Assembly: GCA_937889595.1 (NCBI GenBank)
Contig: CALAOR010000065.1
Span: 1 to 53,082 of the forward strand
Direction: 5' to 3'
DNA: 53,082 bases
Source: an uncultured bacterium
GTDB taxonomy: Bacteria; Oederibacteriota; PGYV01; Palsa-1178
The position numbers were made by a program, and so were the translations under genes. Every line of letters starts with the position of its first letter. Position 1 is the stretch's first letter. Under the pieces are notes generated by a model. The model was given only the letters and a program-made list of their open reading frames with translations. It was not told the origin of the DNA and did not search any database. Below, one piece after another: positions 1,661-12,114 of the stretch.

Positions 1661-3235
1661 CTATTTTACGCACGCAGCCTTTAAAGTACCTGATGCGTGT
1701 TCCCCGCGGTTGGTTGACGCCTCGACCCTGTATATATAAACATCCGATGCCACTGGTTTTGCGCGCCAGTTTTTTCCGTCCCAGTAGAAACTGTTATACC
1801 CTGCTTTGCCTGCTATGTCTTCCTGATGCCTTACTACCTCTCCTGATACGTCAAATATTTTTATCTTCACATCCGCGTCCACAGATAGTTTGTAAACTAT
1901 CTGTGTGTCTATAGTAAATGGATTTGGGAAATTGCCTTTAAGTTCAAGTAAAAGCGGAATCGGCGTGGGCGTATAGGTCGGGGTTATTGTGGGAGTGGCT
2001 GTCATGGTTGAAGTCTCGGTCACAGTATCTGTCACCGTGAACGTGGGCGTGTCCGTAAAAGTATCTGTGACCGTAAACGTAGGTGTCACAGTGGGCGTAT
2101 CAGAATAGGTGGATGTTTCCGTGATGGTCGGCGTGACCGATGATGTCTGAGTGATGGTGGGAGTATCAGTAACGGTATGCGTCTGTGTTATTGTAGGAGA
2201 GTCGGTATGGGTTTCAGTTATAGTATGGGTTTCCGTTATGGAATAAGTCGGCGTTATGGTACAGCTTGGGGTTTGGGTCCGCGTATAAGTCCGGGTAAAT
2301 GTGGAAGTGACCGTCCTCGTTGCCGTCGGGGTTGTTAGCACAGGTTCTGAGTTGAGCCCGTAATAGGTCAGAAAAGTCCTGCTTTCACCGGGATTAAGCA
2401 CAAACCCGCTTGAATTATCGTCGCCGTTGCACCACCACAGGACCACGGCGCTGTCCATAGGCTCGGGGGTTTCGCCTGGCGTCGGCCCGGGAGGTATGGT
2501 AATGCCCGGCGTTGACAGGCTCCATTGCGTATCCCCGTTCACATCCACCCAGTTTGCCACCTCCATAATGTCAGGCTCGACAGCAGCTTCACCATATATA
2601 TTATTTTTAAGATAACCTCTTCCCACGAGCCTTGCCAAAATAGGCAGCTGGTCATAATCCCACCAGTTTGAACTTATCTGGTTTAAGGATTTGTAATAAA
2701 TAGCATTTGATGTTATCACATTAAAACCGTTGTCAATCGAGATGTTTGTACCGTCATTATTTATGACCTTGGTGTCAAGCTCAAGCCGCAAAGCAACGCT
2801 GTGGGCCGTTAATGTATTGGAGTTGGTAAGTGTAAACCTGTATTTTACAGTATCCTGCCTCGGGGGTCCTGTAGCCGGATTCATGACAAGTTCCCACCTG
2901 GCAGTTACAACTATGTCCCCGATACTTTTTGTTCCTGTGATAAAATTACCCCCCGCGACAAGCGGAGATGAAGGCGTCAGATATGCCAGGTCATAGGGGA
3001 CATTATCGACTTTTACCACAGTGTGAGTCGACCAGATGTTGTTGGGAAAACCGTACAGCAGGTCGGCATTTGGCACGGAATAAAGCGGCGAAGTGCCTAT
3101 GACAAAAGCGAATGAAAAATCATCGACATTAAGTGCAATATATGTATCCTGCAATGTCATGTAGGCAAAAACTATATTAGGAGCGGTCAAAGCCAAAGCC
3201 AAAACTAAGACCGCCGCCCTAAAAAATCCGCGCAT
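1661..3235 (-). CDS. Secreted Thr-rich stalk protein with C-terminal FlgD-like Ig domain (copy 2)
   Basis: 524 residues: signal peptide (about 1-24), unrecognised ectodomain (about 25-300) with motifs shared with copy 1 (WWDYD, LVGRGY, YGEAAVEPDIMEVANW, VVLWWCNGD, FLTYYGLN), Thr/Pro stalk with Thr at alternate positions (about 301-427), and a FlgD-like Ig domain (about 428-524; NFPNPF, KIFDVSGEVV, FYWDGKN, VYIYRVE). The strict xT pattern predicts an extended chain with Thr on one face, a possible O-glycosylation or adhesion stalk. In other phyla this C-terminal domain type sits on exported proteins and can be a sorting signal; its role here is inference. AAAAGGAGATAGA precedes the ATG. Confidence 0.85.
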   Translation of the reverse strand: MRGFFRAAVLVLALALTAPNIVFAYMTLQDTYIALNVDDFSFAFVIGTSPLYSVPNADLLYGFPNNIWSTHTVVKVDNVPYDLAYLTPSSPLVAGGNFITGTKSIGDIVVTARWELVMNPATGPPRQDTVKYRFTLTNSNTLTAHSVALRLELDTKVINNDGTNISIDNGFNVITSNAIYYKSLNQISSNWWDYDQLPILARLVGRGYLKNNIYGEAAVEPDIMEVANWVDVNGDTQWSLSTPGITIPPGPTPGETPEPMDSAVVLWWCNGDDNSSGFVLNPGESRTFLTYYGLNSEPVLTTPTATRTVTSTFTRTYTRTQTPSCTITPTYSITETHTITETHTDSPTITQTHTVTDTPTITQTSSVTPTITETSTYSDTPTVTPTFTVTDTFTDTPTFTVTDTVTETSTMTATPTITPTYTPTPIPLLLELKGNFPNPFTIDTQIVYKLSVDADVKIKIFDVSGEVVRHQEDIAGKAGYNSFYWDGKNWRAKPVASDVYIYRVEASTNRGEHASGTLKAACVK

Positions 3236-3582: not shown

Positions 3583-3948
3583 TTATTTTTTCCTTCTCGT
3601 GAAATATACCGCTCCAAAAAGTATGATTAAAACCGCGAGAATTATCATGTTATAAAATTTCTGTTGTTTTATTTCCGCTTCCAGGTCCGACATTTTGGAG
3701 ATCACGGAGTCCATTACCTCGTTTTCGAGGTCGGACTTTGCTGCAAGCCCTTTCAAATCCGCTGTACTTACCTTTTTCTCAGGCGCGCGCTTTATTATGA
3801 AAACCGGCGTTTCAGCCGGCTGTTTGAAATCATCCTCGCCCTCGACCACAACCTTCATCGGAGCGGGTTTTTCGTCCGCCGCTGCCAGGGCCCCACAAAA
3901 TAAAGCCGCTGCCGTTAAAACCAGGAACAATACCGCTGTTTTTCTCAT
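3583..3948 (-). CDS. Small exported coiled-coil protein with C-terminal membrane anchor; last gene of the import operon
   Basis: 121 residues, family not recognised. Order: signal peptide (MRKTAVLFLVLTAAALFCGALAAA), a charged, Pro-containing segment (about 25-60), a predicted coiled coil (about 65-93; LAAKSDLENEVMDSVISKMSDLEAEIKQQ), one membrane helix (NMIILAVLIILFGAVYF) and a basic tail RRKK. It should therefore be a periplasmic protein anchored at its C terminus. I chose this ATG, not an upstream one at 4035, because GGAGG lies 5 nt before it and a signal peptide follows. It starts 28 bp after the permease stop, so it is probably co-transcribed; it may be an accessory subunit of the transporter, which is inference. 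Confidence 0.75.
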   Translation of the reverse strand: MRKTAVLFLVLTAAALFCGALAAADEKPAPMKVVVEGEDDFKQPAETPVFIIKRAPEKKVSTADLKGLAAKSDLENEVMDSVISKMSDLEAEIKQQKFYNMIILAVLIILFGAVYFTRRKK

Positions 3949-3976
3949 TTCCGCCTCCAAAAAATAATTTTTATCC

Positions 3977-4762
3977 TCAATTCCTTTTCCCGGCAATAAA
4001 AGAAAGGCCGTAAAGCGCACAGTTAAAAAGCACAACTGTTGCCGACACAGGCAGATTAAAAATAAACGAAACAGCAGTCCCCGCAGCCGCGCCTGAAGCC
4101 CCGATGATGACGGTCAGGACCATGAATATCTTAAGGTCATTTGTAAGGGAGCGGGCGATAGCCGGCGGTATGATGACAAGAGCAAAAAGCATGAGCCCTC
4201 CTATTATGTTTAAATTCACAGCGATAACCGCGCCGGACAGGATCATGATGCTGTAAAATATGAACTTGTCGTTGATCCCGTTGGCCGCGGCCATTTCCCT
4301 GTTAAAAAGCACGGCTGAAACCTGCCTGTAAAAGATCACCGTAAATAAGGCCGTGACAACCAGGGACGCAGTCATAAATATTATATCCTTAAAATCCGCC
4401 AAAAAAACACTTCCCCATAAGTATCCCGAGGCGTTCTGCATGCCTCCGGGCATTATCCCCGCGCCCATAAAAGCCAGCCCCATGGCAAGGGAAAAAATAA
4501 TGCCCAGCGATATGTTCGTTTTTGTGCCTGATCTGTCGGCAGCCGGGCCGGCGGTGATTGCTGTAAGTATGGAAAGTATGAAGGCGCCGGACTTACCCGG
4601 CAGGCCGAATATGACCGCCCATATGCCGCCCGCCATGGCAGCGTGGGCTATGGCAACGCCGATAAACGGGATGTTCAGGAGAAAAACAAAAACCCCTATC
4701 AAACCGCACTGCGCGCCGGCCAGGGCCATGACGCTTATTGCTTTTACGGAAAATTCATCCAT
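3977..4762 (-). CDS. ABC-3 family (ZnuB/TroC-type) transporter permease
   Basis: 261 residues, about eight hydrophobic segments, with the ABC-3 pattern near the N terminus (GLIGVFVFLLNIPFIGVAIAHAAMAG) and the conserved segment NIIGGLMLFALVIIPPAIARSL in the second half. Members form the inner-membrane channel for Zn, Mn or Fe import with a TroA-fold binding protein and a ZnuC-type ATPase; both partners are the next genes upstream. It overlaps the ATPase gene by 8 bp, which implies translational coupling. The substrate is not certain because the binding protein here is atypical. Confidence 0.85.
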   Translation of the reverse strand: MDEFSVKAISVMALAGAQCGLIGVFVFLLNIPFIGVAIAHAAMAGGIWAVIFGLPGKSGAFILSILTAITAGPAADRSGTKTNISLGIIFSLAMGLAFMGAGIMPGGMQNASGYLWGSVFLADFKDIIFMTASLVVTALFTVIFYRQVSAVLFNREMAAANGINDKFIFYSIMILSGAVIAVNLNIIGGLMLFALVIIPPAIARSLTNDLKIFMVLTVIIGASGAAAGTAVSFIFNLPVSATVVLFNCALYGLSFIAGKRN

Positions 4763-5453
4763 AAATTATTCTCTCTATATTTTTGTTTTTTAATATTTTA
4801 TTTTTTGGCCCGTCCATGATTATTTCCCCGTCTTTCATGACCACTATCCTCAGGCAGCTTTTGGGTATATGCCCCGTCAGGTGTGTCACGTATATTACGG
4901 TAAGGTTAAGCCTGCTTTTGAGTTTTTCAACAAGCGCGATGAAATTCCTGTACGCGCTTATGTCCAGGTTCAGGTTTGGCTCGTCTAAAAGAAGCAGTTC
5001 CGGTTCCCGGGAAAGCGCCATGGCAAGCATGACTTTTTGTTTTTCCCCGCCCGAAAGCGATCCAAAAGGCCTGTCAACTGTGTTTTCCAGCTTCATTTCA
5101 CGTGCCCATATGGCTGCCTGCTTCCTGTTCTTTCCCATGGCGATCACATCGCCGGACGTTATGGGAAAATCATTTTCAGACGAAAAATACTGGGGCACAT
5201 ATCCGGTTTTCAGCCGCATTGCCCGTATTGCAGCGCCGGTCAAGGCGGTCCCCGCTATTTCTACGCTGCCGGAAGCCGGCTTCGTGATCCCGAGTATGGA
5301 CTTAAGCACCGTTGTTTTGCCGGAACCGTTCCTGCCCAGCAGGGTTATGAATTCACCTTTTTTTACCTTTAAAGACAAATTATTTAATATGGCGGTTTTC
5401 CCGGCTTTGATCGTGAGGTTTTTAATTTCGATCTCCAAACCATTTGTTTCCAC
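4755..5453 (-). CDS. ABC transporter ATPase (ZnuC-type) of the import operon
   Basis: 232 residues. Walker A GRNGSGKTT (40-48), Q-loop near VPQYF (86-90), signature LSGGE (133-137), Walker B LLLLDEP (153-159) and a switch His in YVTHLTG. It energises the ABC-3 permease from the cytoplasm. The start is a GTG placed 1 nt after the binding-protein stop codon, with GGGGAATAAA in front of it; an in-frame TTG five codons on is the alternative. Gene order binding protein, ATPase, permease is the usual one for metal importers. Confidence 0.88.
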   Translation of the reverse strand: METNGLEIEIKNLTIKAGKTAILNNLSLKVKKGEFITLLGRNGSGKTTVLKSILGITKPASGSVEIAGTALTGAAIRAMRLKTGYVPQYFSSENDFPITSGDVIAMGKNRKQAAIWAREMKLENTVDRPFGSLSGGEKQKVMLAMALSREPELLLLDEPNLNLDISAYRNFIALVEKLKSRLNLTVIYVTHLTGHIPKSCLRIVVMKDGEIIMDGPKNKILKNKNIERIIYG

Positions 5454-5454
5454 T

Positions 5455-6267
5455 TTATTCCCCTAAAGCGTTTTTTAACCGGCTTAAATTATATTCCCAC
5501 AGGTTCATGAACATGCTTGCGCTGCCGGATTCTCCCGGAAAAACTATAAAGACCGCTTTTTTGACCTTCAGACTTTTATTAAGTATGTCCGCGGTTGAAT
5601 CATGGGTGCCTGTCATGTTGCTTATTATAAGCGATACGTGTTTCGATTTTGTCGCGGCCAGCAGGCCTCTTAAGTCCGCCGGTTTCAGGCTTTCCGGACC
5701 GCCAAAAGTCCCGGCAACATTGAGCCCCATGTACCGGGCTGATACCACCTGAAAACCGCTGGCAAGGACATATATATTTTTTTTCCTTACTTTCTGGATG
5801 TAGTCCATGTCATTGATAACCGAGCCCCTTATTTCGTTTATCCTGGAATTGATGCCGGATGAAAACTGCCCGGATAGTCCTGGAAAATATTTTTCCAGTA
5901 CAGCAGCCGTCTCCTCAAGCCCGCGAAAATAATTCTCTGGTATGGTCATGTCATCGGTCCTTATGGTATCAACCGCTATCTTTGGATTTATTTTCAACGC
6001 CTTCCCGGCCAGAGTCTGCTGGAACGGCTGTATCAAAAAAACCTCTGCTGACAATATCTTGGCCGCATCCTCCGGCCTTAGATCAAAACTTCCGGGACAA
6101 ACATCGGACGGGACCAAAACAGCCGCGTCCAGGCCCCCGCAGTCTTTGACCAGCGACAGCAGTATTGTGCTCCCGCACAGGACTTTTTTCGCGCTGGTTG
6201 CGGTCCTGGTGCAGCCAAAGACAAACAGCGTTGCGACGAGTATTATTATTAAAAGTGTTTTTTTCAT
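5455..6267 (-). CDS. TroA-like substrate-binding lipoprotein with non-canonical ligand positions
   Basis: 270 residues; lipoprotein signal with lipobox VFGC (Cys19), then a TroA/ZnuA-type fold: ILLSLVKDCGG, VPSDVCPGSFDLRPEDAAKI (about 52-71), a long helix (about 140-160), ASGFQVVSARYMGLNVAGTFGG (about 169-190) and LIISNMTGTHDSTADIL. In Zn/Mn binders the second segment normally reads like DPHxYEPxP, with His as ligand, and the later segment carries another His; here these are CPGSFDLRP and ASGFQ. The only His residues are 210 and 222. So fold and operon fit a metal-type importer, but the ligand may differ (for example Cys-bound metal, or a chelate). The operon context supports delivery from the TonB-dependent receptor. 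Confidence 0.8.
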   Translation of the reverse strand: MKKTLLIIILVATLFVFGCTRTATSAKKVLCGSTILLSLVKDCGGLDAAVLVPSDVCPGSFDLRPEDAAKILSAEVFLIQPFQQTLAGKALKINPKIAVDTIRTDDMTIPENYFRGLEETAAVLEKYFPGLSGQFSSGINSRINEIRGSVINDMDYIQKVRKKNIYVLASGFQVVSARYMGLNVAGTFGGPESLKPADLRGLLAATKSKHVSLIISNMTGTHDSTADILNKSLKVKKAVFIVFPGESGSASMFMNLWEYNLSRLKNALGE

Positions 6268-6313
6268 CTTAATCCTTTTTTGTTTTAGACTCTTTAGATT
6301 ATTGAGACTGCCT

Positions 6314-8206
6314 TTAAAGCCTTACCACCAGCCCGCCCTTTATCAAAAAACCGCTGACCGGATAACCTGTCTTAACCTCGTACTTATTATCCAGCATATT
6401 ATCTATATCCGCGTAAAAGGAAGTATCCGTGCCGAAAATCTCGTCCCTGTAATCAATTGACAAACTTAAAGTTATATAATCAGCAAGTTTTAACCGCCTG
6501 TTATCGGCGTCAAACCTGTCTTTTGCGAAATCCGCGCTTAATTTTATTCCTGACTTTTTCATGATCTGTGCTTTTATGTACGCTGTTCCGCTTAGATAAG
6601 CCATATTGGCCGTCTTTTCGCGCGGGTCAACATAGGTCCCGGAAAGCCCGGCCTTGAATATATCGAGGAACTTGCCCGACAGGTCGGCTTCCACACCCCT
6701 CATCAGTATGAACCCGGAGTTCTTTAATTTCATGTCAACAGGGTCCACCTGCATTATGTTGCTTCCTTCTGTCTGATAAAGCGCGATATTATAAGTGATG
6801 CTTTCGAATATTGTCTGCGTGGCGCCTATCTCGTACTCCCAGAATTCTTCGGGGCTTAACTTATCATACGAGCTAAACATCCATTCTCCCATGGCAGGCG
6901 TCTTAAATCCTTTTGAAACATTCACATAAAATGACTGCTGGTCAAAAAGGGATATCTTAAATCCGGCCTGCGGTACGGGAACGCTTCCCCATACGCTGTT
7001 AAATTCATAGCGCAGCCCGGCTGATATGCCAAATATCCCGATTGCCTGGCTCATCAAAAAATACGGGGCATAATCATTTTCATTCCAGCTTTTGTCAAAA
7101 GCAACAGGCGATACGGACGAATAATTCCCGCCGAAATACTGCCAGTCAAAGCCGGCCTTGGTGGAGTTTCCCGGAAATATAACCCACTCGTTCATTATTC
7201 TCAAACCGTTGTTTTCATACTGGCTGTACTCGCCGGGCACAAATATGAACGAGTTACCTGGCTGGGGCAGTGCGTTAAGCAGAAATTTATTGGAGCCTGA
7301 GTCGGTAAAGAATATTGTGGAACCGGTATAATCGGTAAGCTTATAATCAAGCCTGAAATCCCCGTCCCGCTGTATTGTCTGCGAAGCCTCGGCCTCCCTC
7401 GGCCAGTCATATCCGAGAGGCCCCGGATTAAATGTCCTGTCATAGGCATAATCAATATTTATCGAGGCTGTCAGGTTCTTTTCCAGTTCATAACCCCCGT
7501 GAGTATGGAAGTTTTCCAGGTATGAATCCGAGTTGGGCCTTGAGCCCGCGGTTGAACTGTACCCGGCCGAAACATTCATGTCAAGTTCCTCTTTTTTTAT
7601 GACAACGTCCGCAAATTGATTCTGCGTGTAATGGCTTCCTATCATGGTGCCCAATGTGTAGGAGCCGCCTTCAAGTTCCCTTTTTTTTGTTGTAATATTT
7701 ATGACTCCAGCGGCAGCCTGGTTCCCGTAAAGCACGCCTCCCGGCCCTTTTATGACTTCGATGGATTCTATGGAATCCAGGGCCAAGGTGTCAAAAAGCG
7801 GATGGCGGTATATGCCCATGGACTGCGGCCTGCCGTCTATGACCGTTAAGATCCCCGAGTTCGGGGTTTCACCCAGGCCGCGTATCTTCAGGACCGACGG
7901 GGTGAACATGCCTGACCCATAAGAAACTATTTCCGATTTGTTATAGTAAATGCCCGGCACCTCGCCGAGTATGTCCGCAACGGTCATCGCGGAATTATCG
8001 GTAATGGCGGAATTCTTAAAAGTTGCCGTTGACTGCGACAGGTCATTTAAACCCGTGGAAAAACTTTCATCTTCGTCCTCCACCATGATTGCGCCCAGGT
8101 CAACACCCGGCGTTTCATCCCCCGCGCCTGTAAAAATTCCGGGTGTCTCGGCTTTTATGATCACACAAAAAACCATTAGCAGTACGGCAAAAATTATTTT
8201 TTTCAT
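6314..8206 (-). CDS. TonB-dependent outer-membrane receptor
   Basis: 630 residues: signal peptide (about 1-19), a possible TonB box around DLGAIMVEDED, a plug domain (about 60-175; MTVADILGEVPGIYY, VLKIRGLGETPNSGILTVIDGRP, IESIEVIKGPGGVLYGNQAAAGVINITTKK), then a 22-strand-type barrel with alternating aromatic strands, ending FLIKGGLVVRL. This family takes up metal chelates, cobalamin and similar ligands through the outer membrane using TonB. It lies between tonB and the TroA-like gene, which marks it as the outer-membrane step of the same import route. The final residue is Leu, not the usual Phe/Tyr/Trp. The ligand cannot be told from sequence alone. Confidence 0.9.
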   Translation of the reverse strand: MKKIIFAVLLMVFCVIIKAETPGIFTGAGDETPGVDLGAIMVEDEDESFSTGLNDLSQSTATFKNSAITDNSAMTVADILGEVPGIYYNKSEIVSYGSGMFTPSVLKIRGLGETPNSGILTVIDGRPQSMGIYRHPLFDTLALDSIESIEVIKGPGGVLYGNQAAAGVINITTKKRELEGGSYTLGTMIGSHYTQNQFADVVIKKEELDMNVSAGYSSTAGSRPNSDSYLENFHTHGGYELEKNLTASINIDYAYDRTFNPGPLGYDWPREAEASQTIQRDGDFRLDYKLTDYTGSTIFFTDSGSNKFLLNALPQPGNSFIFVPGEYSQYENNGLRIMNEWVIFPGNSTKAGFDWQYFGGNYSSVSPVAFDKSWNENDYAPYFLMSQAIGIFGISAGLRYEFNSVWGSVPVPQAGFKISLFDQQSFYVNVSKGFKTPAMGEWMFSSYDKLSPEEFWEYEIGATQTIFESITYNIALYQTEGSNIMQVDPVDMKLKNSGFILMRGVEADLSGKFLDIFKAGLSGTYVDPREKTANMAYLSGTAYIKAQIMKKSGIKLSADFAKDRFDADNRRLKLADYITLSLSIDYRDEIFGTDTSFYADIDNMLDNKYEVKTGYPVSGFLIKGGLVVRL

Positions 8207-8264
8207 ATTTCCTCCGGCTGTTTTTATTGCGGGGTCCCTGGCTTGCCCCTCCGCTGATTTTATA

Positions 8265-8876
8265 TTAATTAAGCTTAAATACTATGGCCACCTGCATGTC
8301 GATCTTGGGGTTGTTTATGCTTCCGGCATATGCCGGGAACGGCGACGCTCTTTTAATAGTTGATACCGCTTCTTCGTCCAGTACTTCCCTGCCCGAAGAT
8401 TTAACAAGTGAAACCTGCCCGAGGGTTCCGTCGGGCAGTATCGCGAAAGATACCTCCACAGAACCCTGTGTTCCTTCTTTTCTGGCGTCATCAGGGTAAA
8501 ACCTGGCTTCCTGTATCATGCGCTTGACCTCATCCCGGTACATAAATACACTTTTATCGCCATCCCCGCCTGAAATTGGTTCGGCCTTTATGGCCCCAAA
8601 ATCCTCTTTTTTAACGCTCTGCATTTTGGCGTCATTGCCGTGTTTTAGGACGCTTGCATCCGATATGATTTCCACATCGGGAAGCAGGGCATATTGGGAA
8701 GCGGATATTTGGCTGATTTTTGCCGCTGTTTTACCGGATAAGGAAATAAGCCCGGAAGCATAAACTATACCGCCTATAATTGCGGCATGCAGGATGGCTG
8801 ACGCGAAAAGTCCCGTGAGCGCTATAACTTTGCCTGTATATTTGTTCTTTTTAAATGCCAAATTGTTTATTTTCAT
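8265..8876 (-). CDS. tonB: TonB-family energy transducer
   Basis: 203 residues: short basic N terminus, one membrane anchor (VIALTGLFASAILHAAIIGGIVYASG), a periplasmic linker without the usual long Pro-Lys stretch, and a C-terminal TonB domain (YPDDARKEGTQGSVEVSFAILPDGTLGQVSLVKSSG...IDMQVAIVFKLN). It couples the inner-membrane proton gradient to the receptor encoded 58 bp downstream. No exbB or exbD is in the window, so they must be elsewhere. The ATG start follows the signal-anchor logic; an upstream GTG at 8894 is possible, and neither has a clear ribosome binding site. Confidence 0.85.
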   Translation of the reverse strand: MKINNLAFKKNKYTGKVIALTGLFASAILHAAIIGGIVYASGLISLSGKTAAKISQISASQYALLPDVEIISDASVLKHGNDAKMQSVKKEDFGAIKAEPISGGDGDKSVFMYRDEVKRMIQEARFYPDDARKEGTQGSVEVSFAILPDGTLGQVSLVKSSGREVLDEEAVSTIKRASPFPAYAGSINNPKIDMQVAIVFKLN

Positions 8877-8919: not shown

Positions 8920-9615
8920 TTAAATGCTGTTTTCCAGATTTTCCAGAACAGCACGCATTATGCCTTTTATGCCGTCATATCCTTTTTTGTTCTTCAATAT
9001 AATATCCGCGCTTTGCACGTATTTACCGGGCTGTAAAGCGTTCTGCGGGTCTTTAAAAAACGGGCTTATATGGCGGGGTGAATACTCAAAATGGAACTGC
9101 AGGCCAAATGCCCTCTCCTTGTATGAAAACGCCTGGTTTTTACAGCCTTTGCTTAAAACCAGACGGACCGCGCCTTTAGGGATGGAAAAAGTATCGCCGT
9201 GCCAGTGCATGACGGTAAATTCATCCGGCAAGCCTTTAAATATAGCGGAGTTCTTCCCCTGCTTTGTAAGCGTGGCCGGGAAAAATCCTATTTCCTTATA
9301 TTTATTCTTTGTAACTTTTCCGCCAAGACTGTCTGACAGAAGCTGCGCGCCAAGACACATTCCGAGGACAAGTTTTCCCGCTTCAACCGATTTTTTTATG
9401 AACTGTTTTTCCATGACAAGCCACGGGTATTTATCGTGTTCATAAATATTCATAGGCCCGCCCATGATGATAAGCCAGTCAAATAATTTCAGATCAGGCA
9501 GACCCTGATTTTTATATAACAGTGTCTTTGTAAGTTGATGCCCGCGTTTTTTCAGCCAGGTTTCCATATTGGCAAGGTTTTCGTATTTAACGTGCTGGAG
9601 GTAATGTACCCGCAT
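8920..9615 (-). CDS. Class I glutamine amidotransferase (GMP synthase-type GATase domain protein)
   Basis: 231 residues. Oxyanion strand MGGPMNIYEHDKYPWL, nucleophile elbow GMCLGAQL (Cys87), HWHGDTF (137-143) and the catalytic His-Glu in GLQFHFEY (His175, Glu177): a complete triad, so an active glutaminase or peptidase-like enzyme is expected. No synthetase partner is nearby, as is common for stand-alone members. The start was moved to the ATG at 9615, which follows AAAGGAGCCCTTC; 25 extra residues would come from an earlier ATG. It ends 43 bp before tonB and could share its transcript. Confidence 0.85.
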   Translation of the reverse strand: MRVHYLQHVKYENLANMETWLKKRGHQLTKTLLYKNQGLPDLKLFDWLIIMGGPMNIYEHDKYPWLVMEKQFIKKSVEAGKLVLGMCLGAQLLSDSLGGKVTKNKYKEIGFFPATLTKQGKNSAIFKGLPDEFTVMHWHGDTFSIPKGAVRLVLSKGCKNQAFSYKERAFGLQFHFEYSPRHISPFFKDPQNALQPGKYVQSADIILKNKKGYDGIKGIMRAVLENLENSI

Positions 9616-9776
9616 GAAGGGCTCCTTTATTTTGATACTGTTTAAACGATGGCTCTGTTTTATACGGCCTGCGGCGAGCGGCAGCAACATTCGACAAGCT
9701 CATGTTTCAGCAGCCGCTCTACAGATTATTGTTTTGTTGCGTAATTATCAAAACGCCCGCTCCTTACCCTTCCTCA
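9616..9776. other. Intergenic region between cydB and the amidotransferase
   Basis: 161 bp with no ORF of note and no clear terminator or promoter that I can defend. Confidence 0.4.
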
Positions 9777-10781
9777 TTAATATATGTCCGCCTTTGCCTT
9801 GCCTTTAAATATCCTGTATACAAAAATCGTATACCCTATCACCACCGGCATCCCTATCAGGGCGATCCACGACATGAGCGTCAGTGTCATTTGCGATGTG
9901 GACGCGTTTGTTATGGTTATGTTCAGCACGGGGCTGTTGGATGCTTTAATCAGGTTCGGGAAATGAGCGGCAGCGGTTATGATCCACAGTCCGGCCAGCG
10001 CCGCGGAAGTTGAGATGAAAACCAGGCCCTCTCTTGCTTTTACGCGCGCAGCCATTGCCGCTGTCAAACCGGCAAATACCATTGCCGCGCCCGCCATGAA
10101 AAACGGTGAAGCCACGATGTTTTTTACAAATATATTTATTACCAGCATATACACGGCTGACAGCACAAAATAAACAGGAAGTATATACTCAAGCGCGTTA
10201 AAAGCGCTTTCCCTTACTTTGCCCTCTGATTTTAAGGCCGCGTACGCCCCGCCCTGCGCCAAAATGGCGCATAAACCCAGCACGCCGAAAACAAGCGGAA
10301 CGGGCCTGAGCAGTGTAAAAAAATTGCCGGCATATTCCATGTCTGTTCCCAGCGGCACACCGTACACCACATTACCAAGCGCGACGCCGAATAATAACGA
10401 GGCAATAAAGCTTCCTATGGAAAAAGAAGCTTCCCAAAATCCCGCGCGTGCCGTGTCATGCGCCCTGAATTCCATGGAAACTGCCCTGAATATCAGTGAG
10501 AACAGGACAAGCATCATTGCAAGATAAAATCCCGAGAATGCGGTGGCATAAGCCTGGGGAAAAGCGGCGAATAAAGCCCCTCCCCCGGTAATCAGCCACA
10601 CTTCATTTCCGTCCCAGACCGGGCCTATTGACGCGATAAGGATGTCTTTTTCTTTTTTCTTTTCCGTAATAAAAGGAAGCAGCATGCCGACTCCCAGGTC
10701 AAAACCGTCAAGTATGGAATACCCGGCAAAAAGCAGGGCAACCAGTATGAACCAGAGTGTCTGCAGGTTTATAAGTTCCAT
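9777..10781 (-). CDS. cydB: Cytochrome bd ubiquinol oxidase subunit II
   Basis: 334 residues, about nine hydrophobic helices. Family signatures are LQTLWFILVALLFAGYSILDGFDLGVGMLLPF at the N terminus and GPVWDGNEVWLITGGGALFAAFPQAYA. It is the non-catalytic partner of CydA in the inner membrane. Its start lies 1 nt after the cydA stop, so the two are one operon. The full-length reading frame has no defect. Confidence 0.95.
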   Translation of the reverse strand: MELINLQTLWFILVALLFAGYSILDGFDLGVGMLLPFITEKKKEKDILIASIGPVWDGNEVWLITGGGALFAAFPQAYATAFSGFYLAMMLVLFSLIFRAVSMEFRAHDTARAGFWEASFSIGSFIASLLFGVALGNVVYGVPLGTDMEYAGNFFTLLRPVPLVFGVLGLCAILAQGGAYAALKSEGKVRESAFNALEYILPVYFVLSAVYMLVINIFVKNIVASPFFMAGAAMVFAGLTAAMAARVKAREGLVFISTSAALAGLWIITAAAHFPNLIKASNSPVLNITITNASTSQMTLTLMSWIALIGMPVVIGYTIFVYRIFKGKAKADIY

Positions 10782-10782
10782 A

Positions 10783-12114
10783 CTACACCCCCTTTTCTTC
10801 CGTTTTAAAACCTTCGTTTATTATTTTGAACGCCACTGAAAGGAATATGGTTCCCAGCAGGAGGTAAATGACAGCGAACATGATGAGTGAGAACAGTATC
10901 TGCCCCGCAGGCACGACTACGGAGGCGGCGTCCCGCGTTTTCATAAGGCCGTAAATAATCCACGGCTGGCGCCCGACCTCGGCCGATATCCAGCCGGTCT
11001 CGTATGCGATATGCGGAAGAGGTATCATCAGGGGCAGCAGGAACAAGAACCACTTTGTGTCATAGAGTTTTTTTGTATACAACAGGTACGCCCCAAATAA
11101 CCCCACGCCGATGGACAGCAGCCCGATGGCCACCATGATGTGATATGTCTGGAAAACGAAGTTCACGTTCGGCCAATTTTCCCTTGGAAAATCATTCAAA
11201 CCTTTTATCACGGAATCAAATTTAAAATTATACAGAAAGCTGAGGAAATTAGGCATATAAAAACCGGTTGTTTTTTGATTTTTTACGTCAACCCATCCGA
11301 ACGCGTACAGGGGAACTCCCGCGGATGTGTTAAAATGCCCCTCAAGCGCAGCCGCTTTTACAGGCTGGGTATTGATGACCTGTATCGCGTGCTGGTGCCC
11401 GGTCAGGAGCTGCAGTATGGGGGTGATTGCAAACAATATGATGCCCACTTTAAGCATTTTTTTCGCGGTTTCCCCGTGCTGTTTTGTGAAAACGTAAAAC
11501 GCGCCTATGCCGGTTACCATTATGGAACATGTCATCCACGAAGCCATGATGGTGTGCAGGAAGCGGATCACGGTGGAAGGGTTGAAAACAGCCGCGCCAA
11601 AATTACTCAGGACAATTTTTCCTGTTTGGGCAAAGACATTCGCGTCATATCCGGCGGGCGTCTGCATCCATGAATTCGCCACAACTATCCAGAAACCGGA
11701 CAAGTGCCCGCCTATAAAAACCAGCAAAGCCGACAGCCAGTACACCCCTTTTGACACCCTGTTCCTCCCGAACACCAATACGCCTATAAAAACCGACTCA
11801 AGAAAAAATGCCACAACGCCCTCAATCGCAAGGATGGGCCCGAAGATGTCGCCGACCATCCTGGAATACGACGACCAGTTATTGCCGAATGAGAACTCCA
11901 TGGTAATACCTGTGGCCACGCCTACAACAAAGATCACGCCCAAAAGCCTTGCGAGGAAGTCCGTTATTTTTTTATAATCCCCGTCTTTTTTTACAAGATA
12001 AATGGACTCCGTTATTAAAATAATAAGGGCCGTACCAAGCGTCATAGCCGGAAAGAGAAAGTGAAACCCTATAGTCAGCGCAAACTGTATCCTGGCAAGT
12101 ATTACCGCGTCCAT
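10783..12114 (-). CDS. cydA: Cytochrome bd ubiquinol oxidase subunit I
   Basis: 443 residues. ARIQFALTIGFHFLFPAMTLG carries the heme b595 His, FGPILAIEGVVAFFLESVFIG the proton-channel glutamates, and SGFWIVVANSWMQTPAGY is a family hallmark. The quinol loop is short, as in the CIO/Bacillus-like type. The enzyme reduces O2 to water with quinol and works at very low oxygen, so the organism respires or at least detoxifies oxygen. AGGAGGGAACC precedes the ATG. Confidence 0.95.
   Translation of the reverse strand: MDAVILARIQFALTIGFHFLFPAMTLGTALIILITESIYLVKKDGDYKKITDFLARLLGVIFVVGVATGITMEFSFGNNWSSYSRMVGDIFGPILAIEGVVAFFLESVFIGVLVFGRNRVSKGVYWLSALLVFIGGHLSGFWIVVANSWMQTPAGYDANVFAQTGKIVLSNFGAAVFNPSTVIRFLHTIMASWMTCSIMVTGIGAFYVFTKQHGETAKKMLKVGIILFAITPILQLLTGHQHAIQVINTQPVKAAALEGHFNTSAGVPLYAFGWVDVKNQKTTGFYMPNFLSFLYNFKFDSVIKGLNDFPRENWPNVNFVFQTYHIMVAIGLLSIGVGLFGAYLLYTKKLYDTKWFLFLLPLMIPLPHIAYETGWISAEVGRQPWIIYGLMKTRDAASVVVPAGQILFSLIMFAVIYLLLGTIFLSVAFKIINEGFKTEEKGV

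Follow-up and report, generated by a model that had tools for sequence, protein, structure and literature searches.

We analysed a stretch of 53,082 nucleotides from the genome of an uncultured bacterium (contig CALAOR010000065.1; the whole stretch is called the window below). In it, five closely packed genes on the minus strand, between 3583 and 8876, make up a single unit that encodes TonB, a receptor dependent on it, a lipoprotein of the TroA fold, an ATPase of the ATP-binding cassette (ABC) type and a permease of the ABC-3 family. Positions, gaps and Pfam families bear out the preliminary description of this region, which had read it as a five-gene import unit; from tonB to the permease gene, the intergenic distances are 58, 46 and 1 nt, followed by an overlap of 8 nt. 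The five genes are:

8265-8876, minus strand: TonB energy-transducing protein, 203 residues (PF03544, TonB_C, 68.7 bits)
6314-8206, minus strand: TonB-dependent outer-membrane receptor, 630 residues (PF07715, Plug, 68.1 bits; PF00593, barrel, 73.3 bits)
5455-6267, minus strand: TroA-fold substrate-binding lipoprotein (SBP) of what we call the CPGH family, 270 residues (PF01297, 29.2 bits; lipobox Cys19)
4755-5453, minus strand: ABC transporter ATPase, 232 residues (PF00005, ABC_tran, 113.9 bits)
3977-4762, minus strand: ABC-3 family permease, 261 residues (PF00950, 132.6 bits)

The unit thus encodes both a plug-and-barrel receptor with a TonB C-terminal domain, as in TonB-dependent uptake, and a PF00950 permease with its cognate ATPase and SBP, as in ABC-3 importers; given these importer families, transport would be inward. 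The gene order tonB-receptor-SBP-ATPase-permease is repeated in several families of the window's order, and tonB orthologues hold the same operon position in L018, L020, L022, L024, L027 and L028 (loci are numbered with L, genomes with G and families with f; G000 is the window's own genome, and the window's clade comprises families f1 and f6). In family f6 (L021, L023 and L025, from G040, G039 and G041, respectively), tonB and the genes for the SBP, ATPase and permease are kept, with no such receptor adjoining.

The SBP matches PF01297 (ZnuA) barely above the cut-off (29.2 vs 29.0 bits), and its fold is likewise that of the cluster A-I SBPs: the AlphaFold2 model (pLDDT 93.9, pTM 0.87) contains a long interlobe helix (residues 129-162), and its nearest solved folds are Mn/Zn/Fe binders, including MntC, YfeA, ZnuA and FpvC (TM-score about 0.64-0.77, E-value 1.4e-13). 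The preliminary description had pointed out that CPGSFDLRP (residues 57-65) and ASGFQ (169-173) replace the usual His motifs and that H210 and H222 are the only His of the protein; both statements were read directly in the SBP. The loss goes further than the two positions noted there, since all four ligand positions are affected. In YfeA the metal ligands are His76, His141, Glu207 and Asp282 (PMC6719664). When the ligand positions were mapped by alignment to PsaA and by profile alignment to the classical ZnuA of G000, the first fell on Gly59, the second on a loop that is deleted (the PsaA alignment puts Asp105 there), the third on Gly171/Phe172 and the fourth on Ile241/Val242. About 17 residues are missing from the loop that bears the second His of the classical site, and by sequence alignments the SBP keeps none of the His/His/(His or Glu)/Asp ligands of cluster A-I. 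As the classical Zn/Mn site is absent, the metal is held differently or arrives as a chelate, which is the choice that the preliminary description, naming no cargo, had arrived at. Candidate residues for a new ligand site are Cys57, Asp62, Gln/His173 and Asn217, with His60 in most relatives.

With the cluster A-I SBPs that work with ABC-3 permeases (TroA, PsaA, MntC, YfeA, ZnuA), the window system therefore shares the fold, the interlobe helix, the lipoprotein form, the permease and the ATPase; it differs from them in lacking the four ligands, in its conserved Cys57, Asp62, Asn217 and Gln173, and in the link of its relatives to NikR (see below). The shared features, namely an SBP whose fold and sequence relatives are Mn/Zn/Fe binders and a permease of the ABC-3 family, would suit an ordinary importer of zinc or manganese, comparable to ZnuABC or TroABCD, in which the set of ligands varies from the usual one. 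We consider this highly improbable, however, in view of the loss of all four ligand positions, the tie of the family to NikR, and the presence elsewhere in G000 of genes for a classical ZnuA and for a permease and an ATPase that go with it.

Rather than a one-off variant of a zinc binder, the SBP represents a large and conserved branch of the cluster A-I/ABC-3 importers that is linked to NikR. A search at the protein level, covering 45 genomes of the phylum, gave orthologues in 12 of the 14 genomes of the window's order, with the ATPase and permease genes adjoining, so the observation is not due to chance; four further genomes have weaker relatives. A scan of a genome collection with the single window SBP gave no relative, and a scan with an alignment succeeded: other TroA-like proteins with a CPG-type motif, which the preliminary description had suggested looking for, were found at 69 loci (L034-L102) in GTDB genomes, in a scan that in effect relied on the CPG motif. 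By six-frame hidden Markov model (HMM) scans within 6 kb of the SBP, the ATPase is found in 64, the permease in 61 and a TonB receptor in 20 of the 69 loci. Their record titles, which for metagenome-assembled genomes are an unreliable taxonomy, name FCPU426/Goldbacteria, Hydrogenedentota, Sumerlaeota, Planctomycetota, Verrucomicrobia, Armatimonadetes, WOR-3, Elusimicrobia, Thermodesulfobacteriota, Desulfotomaculum-type clostridia and a Bathyarchaeon; these lineages are mostly anaerobic.

Conservation was read from two alignments: A1, with 14 orthologues from the protein search that were not selected by motif, and A3, with 68 sequences from the motif-selected loci. In A1, Cys57, Pro58, Asp62, Pro65 and Asn217 are invariant (14/14), and position 60 varies among His, Ser, Gly and Thr. 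In A3, Cys57, Asp62, Asn217, Pro244 and Asn260 occur in 68/68 sequences, His60 in 63, Gln173 in 59 and Asn242 in 56, with the reservation that invariance of residues 57-65 is partly circular here, these residues being part of the search pattern; A1 independently supports Cys57 and Asp62. A profile of A3 matches PsaA with an E-value of 3.6e-21. Judging from these sequences, CPG[HSGT][FY]D[LMI][KR]P marks out an SBP family of its own, apparently an undescribed branch of the zinc/manganese importer family. Separately, G014 and G016 contain remote TroA-like proteins that lack the CPG motif as well as PHxYEP (L016/L031 and L017/L032); the two share a neighbourhood that includes an alpha/beta hydrolase-like gene, with no ABC-3 permease called adjoining.

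NikR is a nickel-responsive repressor, and its gene lies within 6 kb of the SBP gene in 17 of the 69 loci; if a genome has roughly one nikR, chance alone predicts well under 1% per locus. Within the window's order, nikR adjoins the orthologous operon in at least three cases: in L024/L038 it overlaps tonB, with which the operon begins, and in L028 and L076 it is situated upstream; the NikR protein of L038 scores 194.8 bits against a NikR cut-off of 105. We also searched for NikR operators with the delta-proteobacterial consensus GTGTTAC-N13/14-GTAACAC (PMC545781), and found sites with at most two mismatches upstream in 13/69 loci, compared to 3 of 1380 control stretches; those in L079 and L101 are perfect, and the enterobacterial consensus gave scattered matches only. 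Both the gene and the box thus occur at operons orthologous to that of the window: for example, L020/L037 has a NikR-type operator 18 nt before tonB, and the window receptor is 45-49% identical to the receptors of L020, L024, L027 and L028, all of which belong to operons that have either nikR or a NikR box. In addition, NikR and an operon-linked methyltransferase (discussed below) co-occur in the same six genomes of the order (G033-G038), which have [NiFe]-hydrogenase matches in 6/6 and HypA in 5/6 cases. At the family level, the link of the CPGH family to nickel is strong.

G000 itself needs nickel, to judge from the complete [NiFe]-hydrogenase and Hyp proteins that it encodes: contig C79 encodes a large subunit in which both CxxC pairs (RLCGIC and DPCLSC) were read directly, HypA was detected there by Pfam, and open reading frames (ORFs) resembling HypB, HypD and HypE, assigned by sequence reading only, lie beside the large-subunit gene. 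Genome scans found no CbiM/NikM and no NicO (NiCoT) importer in G000. A NikR-linked family and a hydrogenase in a genome with neither kind of importer make the operon a probable importer of Ni(II) or of a nickel chelate, and we put the probability that it is a double-membrane uptake system for such a cargo, with a rebuilt ligand site, at roughly 0.6. In such a system the receptor, powered by TonB, would bring Ni(II) or a nickel chelate into the periplasm, the CPGH-family lipoprotein would bind it in a cleft that has dispensed with the four cluster A-I ligands, and the ABC-3 permease and ATPase would pump it into the cytoplasm; in G000 the nickel would probably be destined for the [NiFe]-hydrogenase.

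Other metals and nickel enzymes were also considered. CbiC is absent from all 14 genomes of the order, which lowers cobalt for B12 synthesis as a candidate cargo; as G000 is among them, it has no evident cobalt need. Prismane matches were not counted as nickel enzymes; their open frames are of about 550 residues, presumably the size of a hybrid cluster protein rather than of a Ni-CODH. LarC/Ni_insertion was not found in the operon-bearing genomes of the order, and an Rfam scan of the window and five related loci gave no riboswitch (NiCo, cobalamin or other).

Several observations weigh against a nickel cargo in the window's own case. G000 has neither a NikR gene nor an operon-linked methyltransferase, and there is no NikR box at the window operon; G000 encodes one Opp/Dpp/Nik-type SBP, which could carry Ni; and part of the conservation in A3 is circular, as noted above. 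Moreover, His60, His80 and Asn242 of the family are replaced by Ser, Gln and Val in the window SBP. Six relatives, G039-G044, have neither HypA nor a NiFeSe_Hases match over the cut-off, yet all six keep the operon; this is the chief reservation about nickel, and because of it the substrate may have changed in the window's clade. Such a change could mean that the family imports nickel and that f1 and f6 switched to iron or another metal chelate after the loss of NikR and the methyltransferase, both of which are absent in these two families. The three replaced residues would fit a switch, as would the retention of the transporter by the six of the seven f1 and f6 genomes in which HypA and any [NiFe]-hydrogenase over the cut-off are missing, and the placement of the operon behind cydAB and an amidotransferase gene, not nikR, in G000 and G044. 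Nevertheless, the hydrogenase of G000 together with the absence of a recognised importer there speaks for nickel, and orthologues from NikR-containing genomes (L020, L024, L026 and L028) likewise have Ser or Thr at residue 60, so the loss of His60 does not track the loss of NikR; we regard a switch of cargo as unlikely.

TonB receptors commonly take chelates. One version of the nickel reading is that an organic nickel chelate crosses both membranes intact, and that the methyltransferase of the relatives makes or processes its ligand; besides the usual cargo of such receptors, the small number of conventional bare-ion ligands on the SBP would agree with this. The methyltransferase, a class I S-adenosylmethionine (SAM) enzyme with no more specific family match, is found within 6 kb of the SBP in 49 of the 69 loci, and it also lies near the operon in L020, L024 and L026-L030. 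Its Pro119, His120, His145, Asn153 and His156 are conserved in 56/56 sequences and Cys114 in 52/56, which may hint at a metal or metal-ligand substrate. However, the window has no such gene, no chelator biosynthesis cluster was seen in the neighbourhoods inspected (the search was not systematic), and a TonB receptor can feed a TroA-like SBP that takes a free ion after release in the periplasm, as in the case of FpvC (PMC6954188). Passage of an intact chelate is possible, and on balance somewhat doubtful.

The pairing of a TonB receptor with an ABC-3 importer, which the preliminary description had called uncommon, is not without precedent. The P. aeruginosa receptor FpvA depends on TonB and has FpvC and the ABC transporter FpvDE as its partners (PMC6954188), and Neisseria has a TonB-type zinc receptor (PMC2895646). 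The FpvA-FpvCDEF pyoverdine pathway resembles the window system in combining a TonB-dependent receptor, a TroA-like SBP (FpvC, itself a fold match to the window SBP) and an ABC transporter, but its cargo is iron, and it depends on a reductase, FpvG, and on an additional binding protein. TonB receptors at NikR-linked loci are likewise known: FrpB4 and FecA3 are regulated by NikR, as are those of the Caldithrix nik loci (PMC11247825, PMC5317091), although in Caldithrix the receptor is paired with NikMNQO-type importers and not with ABC-3. The CPGH systems are similar to NikABCDE, NikMNQO/NikKMLQO, NiCoT and NiuBDE in their linkage to NikR genes or operators and in their occurrence in genomes with [NiFe]-hydrogenases; their permease, in contrast, is of the ABC-3 family, which none of those systems uses. 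Searches of the open-access literature turned up no report of a nickel importer with an ABC-3 permease.

We tentatively suggest, with less than even confidence, that the CPGH systems form an undescribed class of nickel importers widespread in anaerobes, which would combine an ABC-3 transporter, a TroA-fold SBP whose classical site has given way to one of Cys/Asp/Asn/Gln(His) that can accommodate a nickel chelate, and a dedicated methyltransferase; the partner at the outer membrane would be a TonB receptor in certain lineages and perhaps a pilin-like protein elsewhere. Such a class, if real, would supply an importer to users of nickel enzymes that have no recognised one, G000 among them, would correct the automatic annotation "zinc/manganese ABC transporter" in many lineages, and would offer an example, open to direct testing, of a metal-binding fold remodelled to take another cargo; extracellular nickel capture is a further question, raised by the methyltransferase and pilin-like genes that accompany the transporter.

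The pilin-like gene lies directly upstream of the SBP gene in 17 of the 69 loci (L043, L044, L050, L052, L054, L060-L062, L066, L067, L077, L082, L084, L087-L089 and L097); its product has a prepilin N-terminus (GFTLIELL) and, in L067, an H-X9-DG end, and several of these genes sit behind a NikR box or nikR. It never occurs in the same locus as a matching TonB receptor (20 loci), a separation with a chance probability of about 0.001 if lineage kinship is ignored. The pilin-like protein might stand in for the receptor.

Two further genes flank the five:

3583-3948, minus strand: small protein, 121 residues, with a signal-like N-terminus and a C-terminal transmembrane segment (no Pfam match above the cut-off)
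8920-9690, minus strand: class I glutamine amidotransferase-like protein, 43 nt upstream of tonB (PF00117, 73.9 bits)

The boundary at 3583 is the end of the first of these, a sixth ORF encoding a membrane-anchored small protein as the tail of the operon. Homologues lie behind the operon in L022, L024 and L028 (by BLAST) and L036-L038 (by HMM), all of them Goldbacteria relatives; the window product carries an acidic VEGED motif. The amidotransferase-like gene also adjoins the operon in L018 (upstream) and in the f6 loci L021, L023 and L025 (downstream); it is possibly co-transcribed with the operon. Together with cydAB it occupies 8920-12114, immediately upstream of tonB on the same strand. 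Beyond the other end of the operon, 1661-3235 encodes a secreted-looking protein with a long Thr/Pro-rich linker of TPT repeats.

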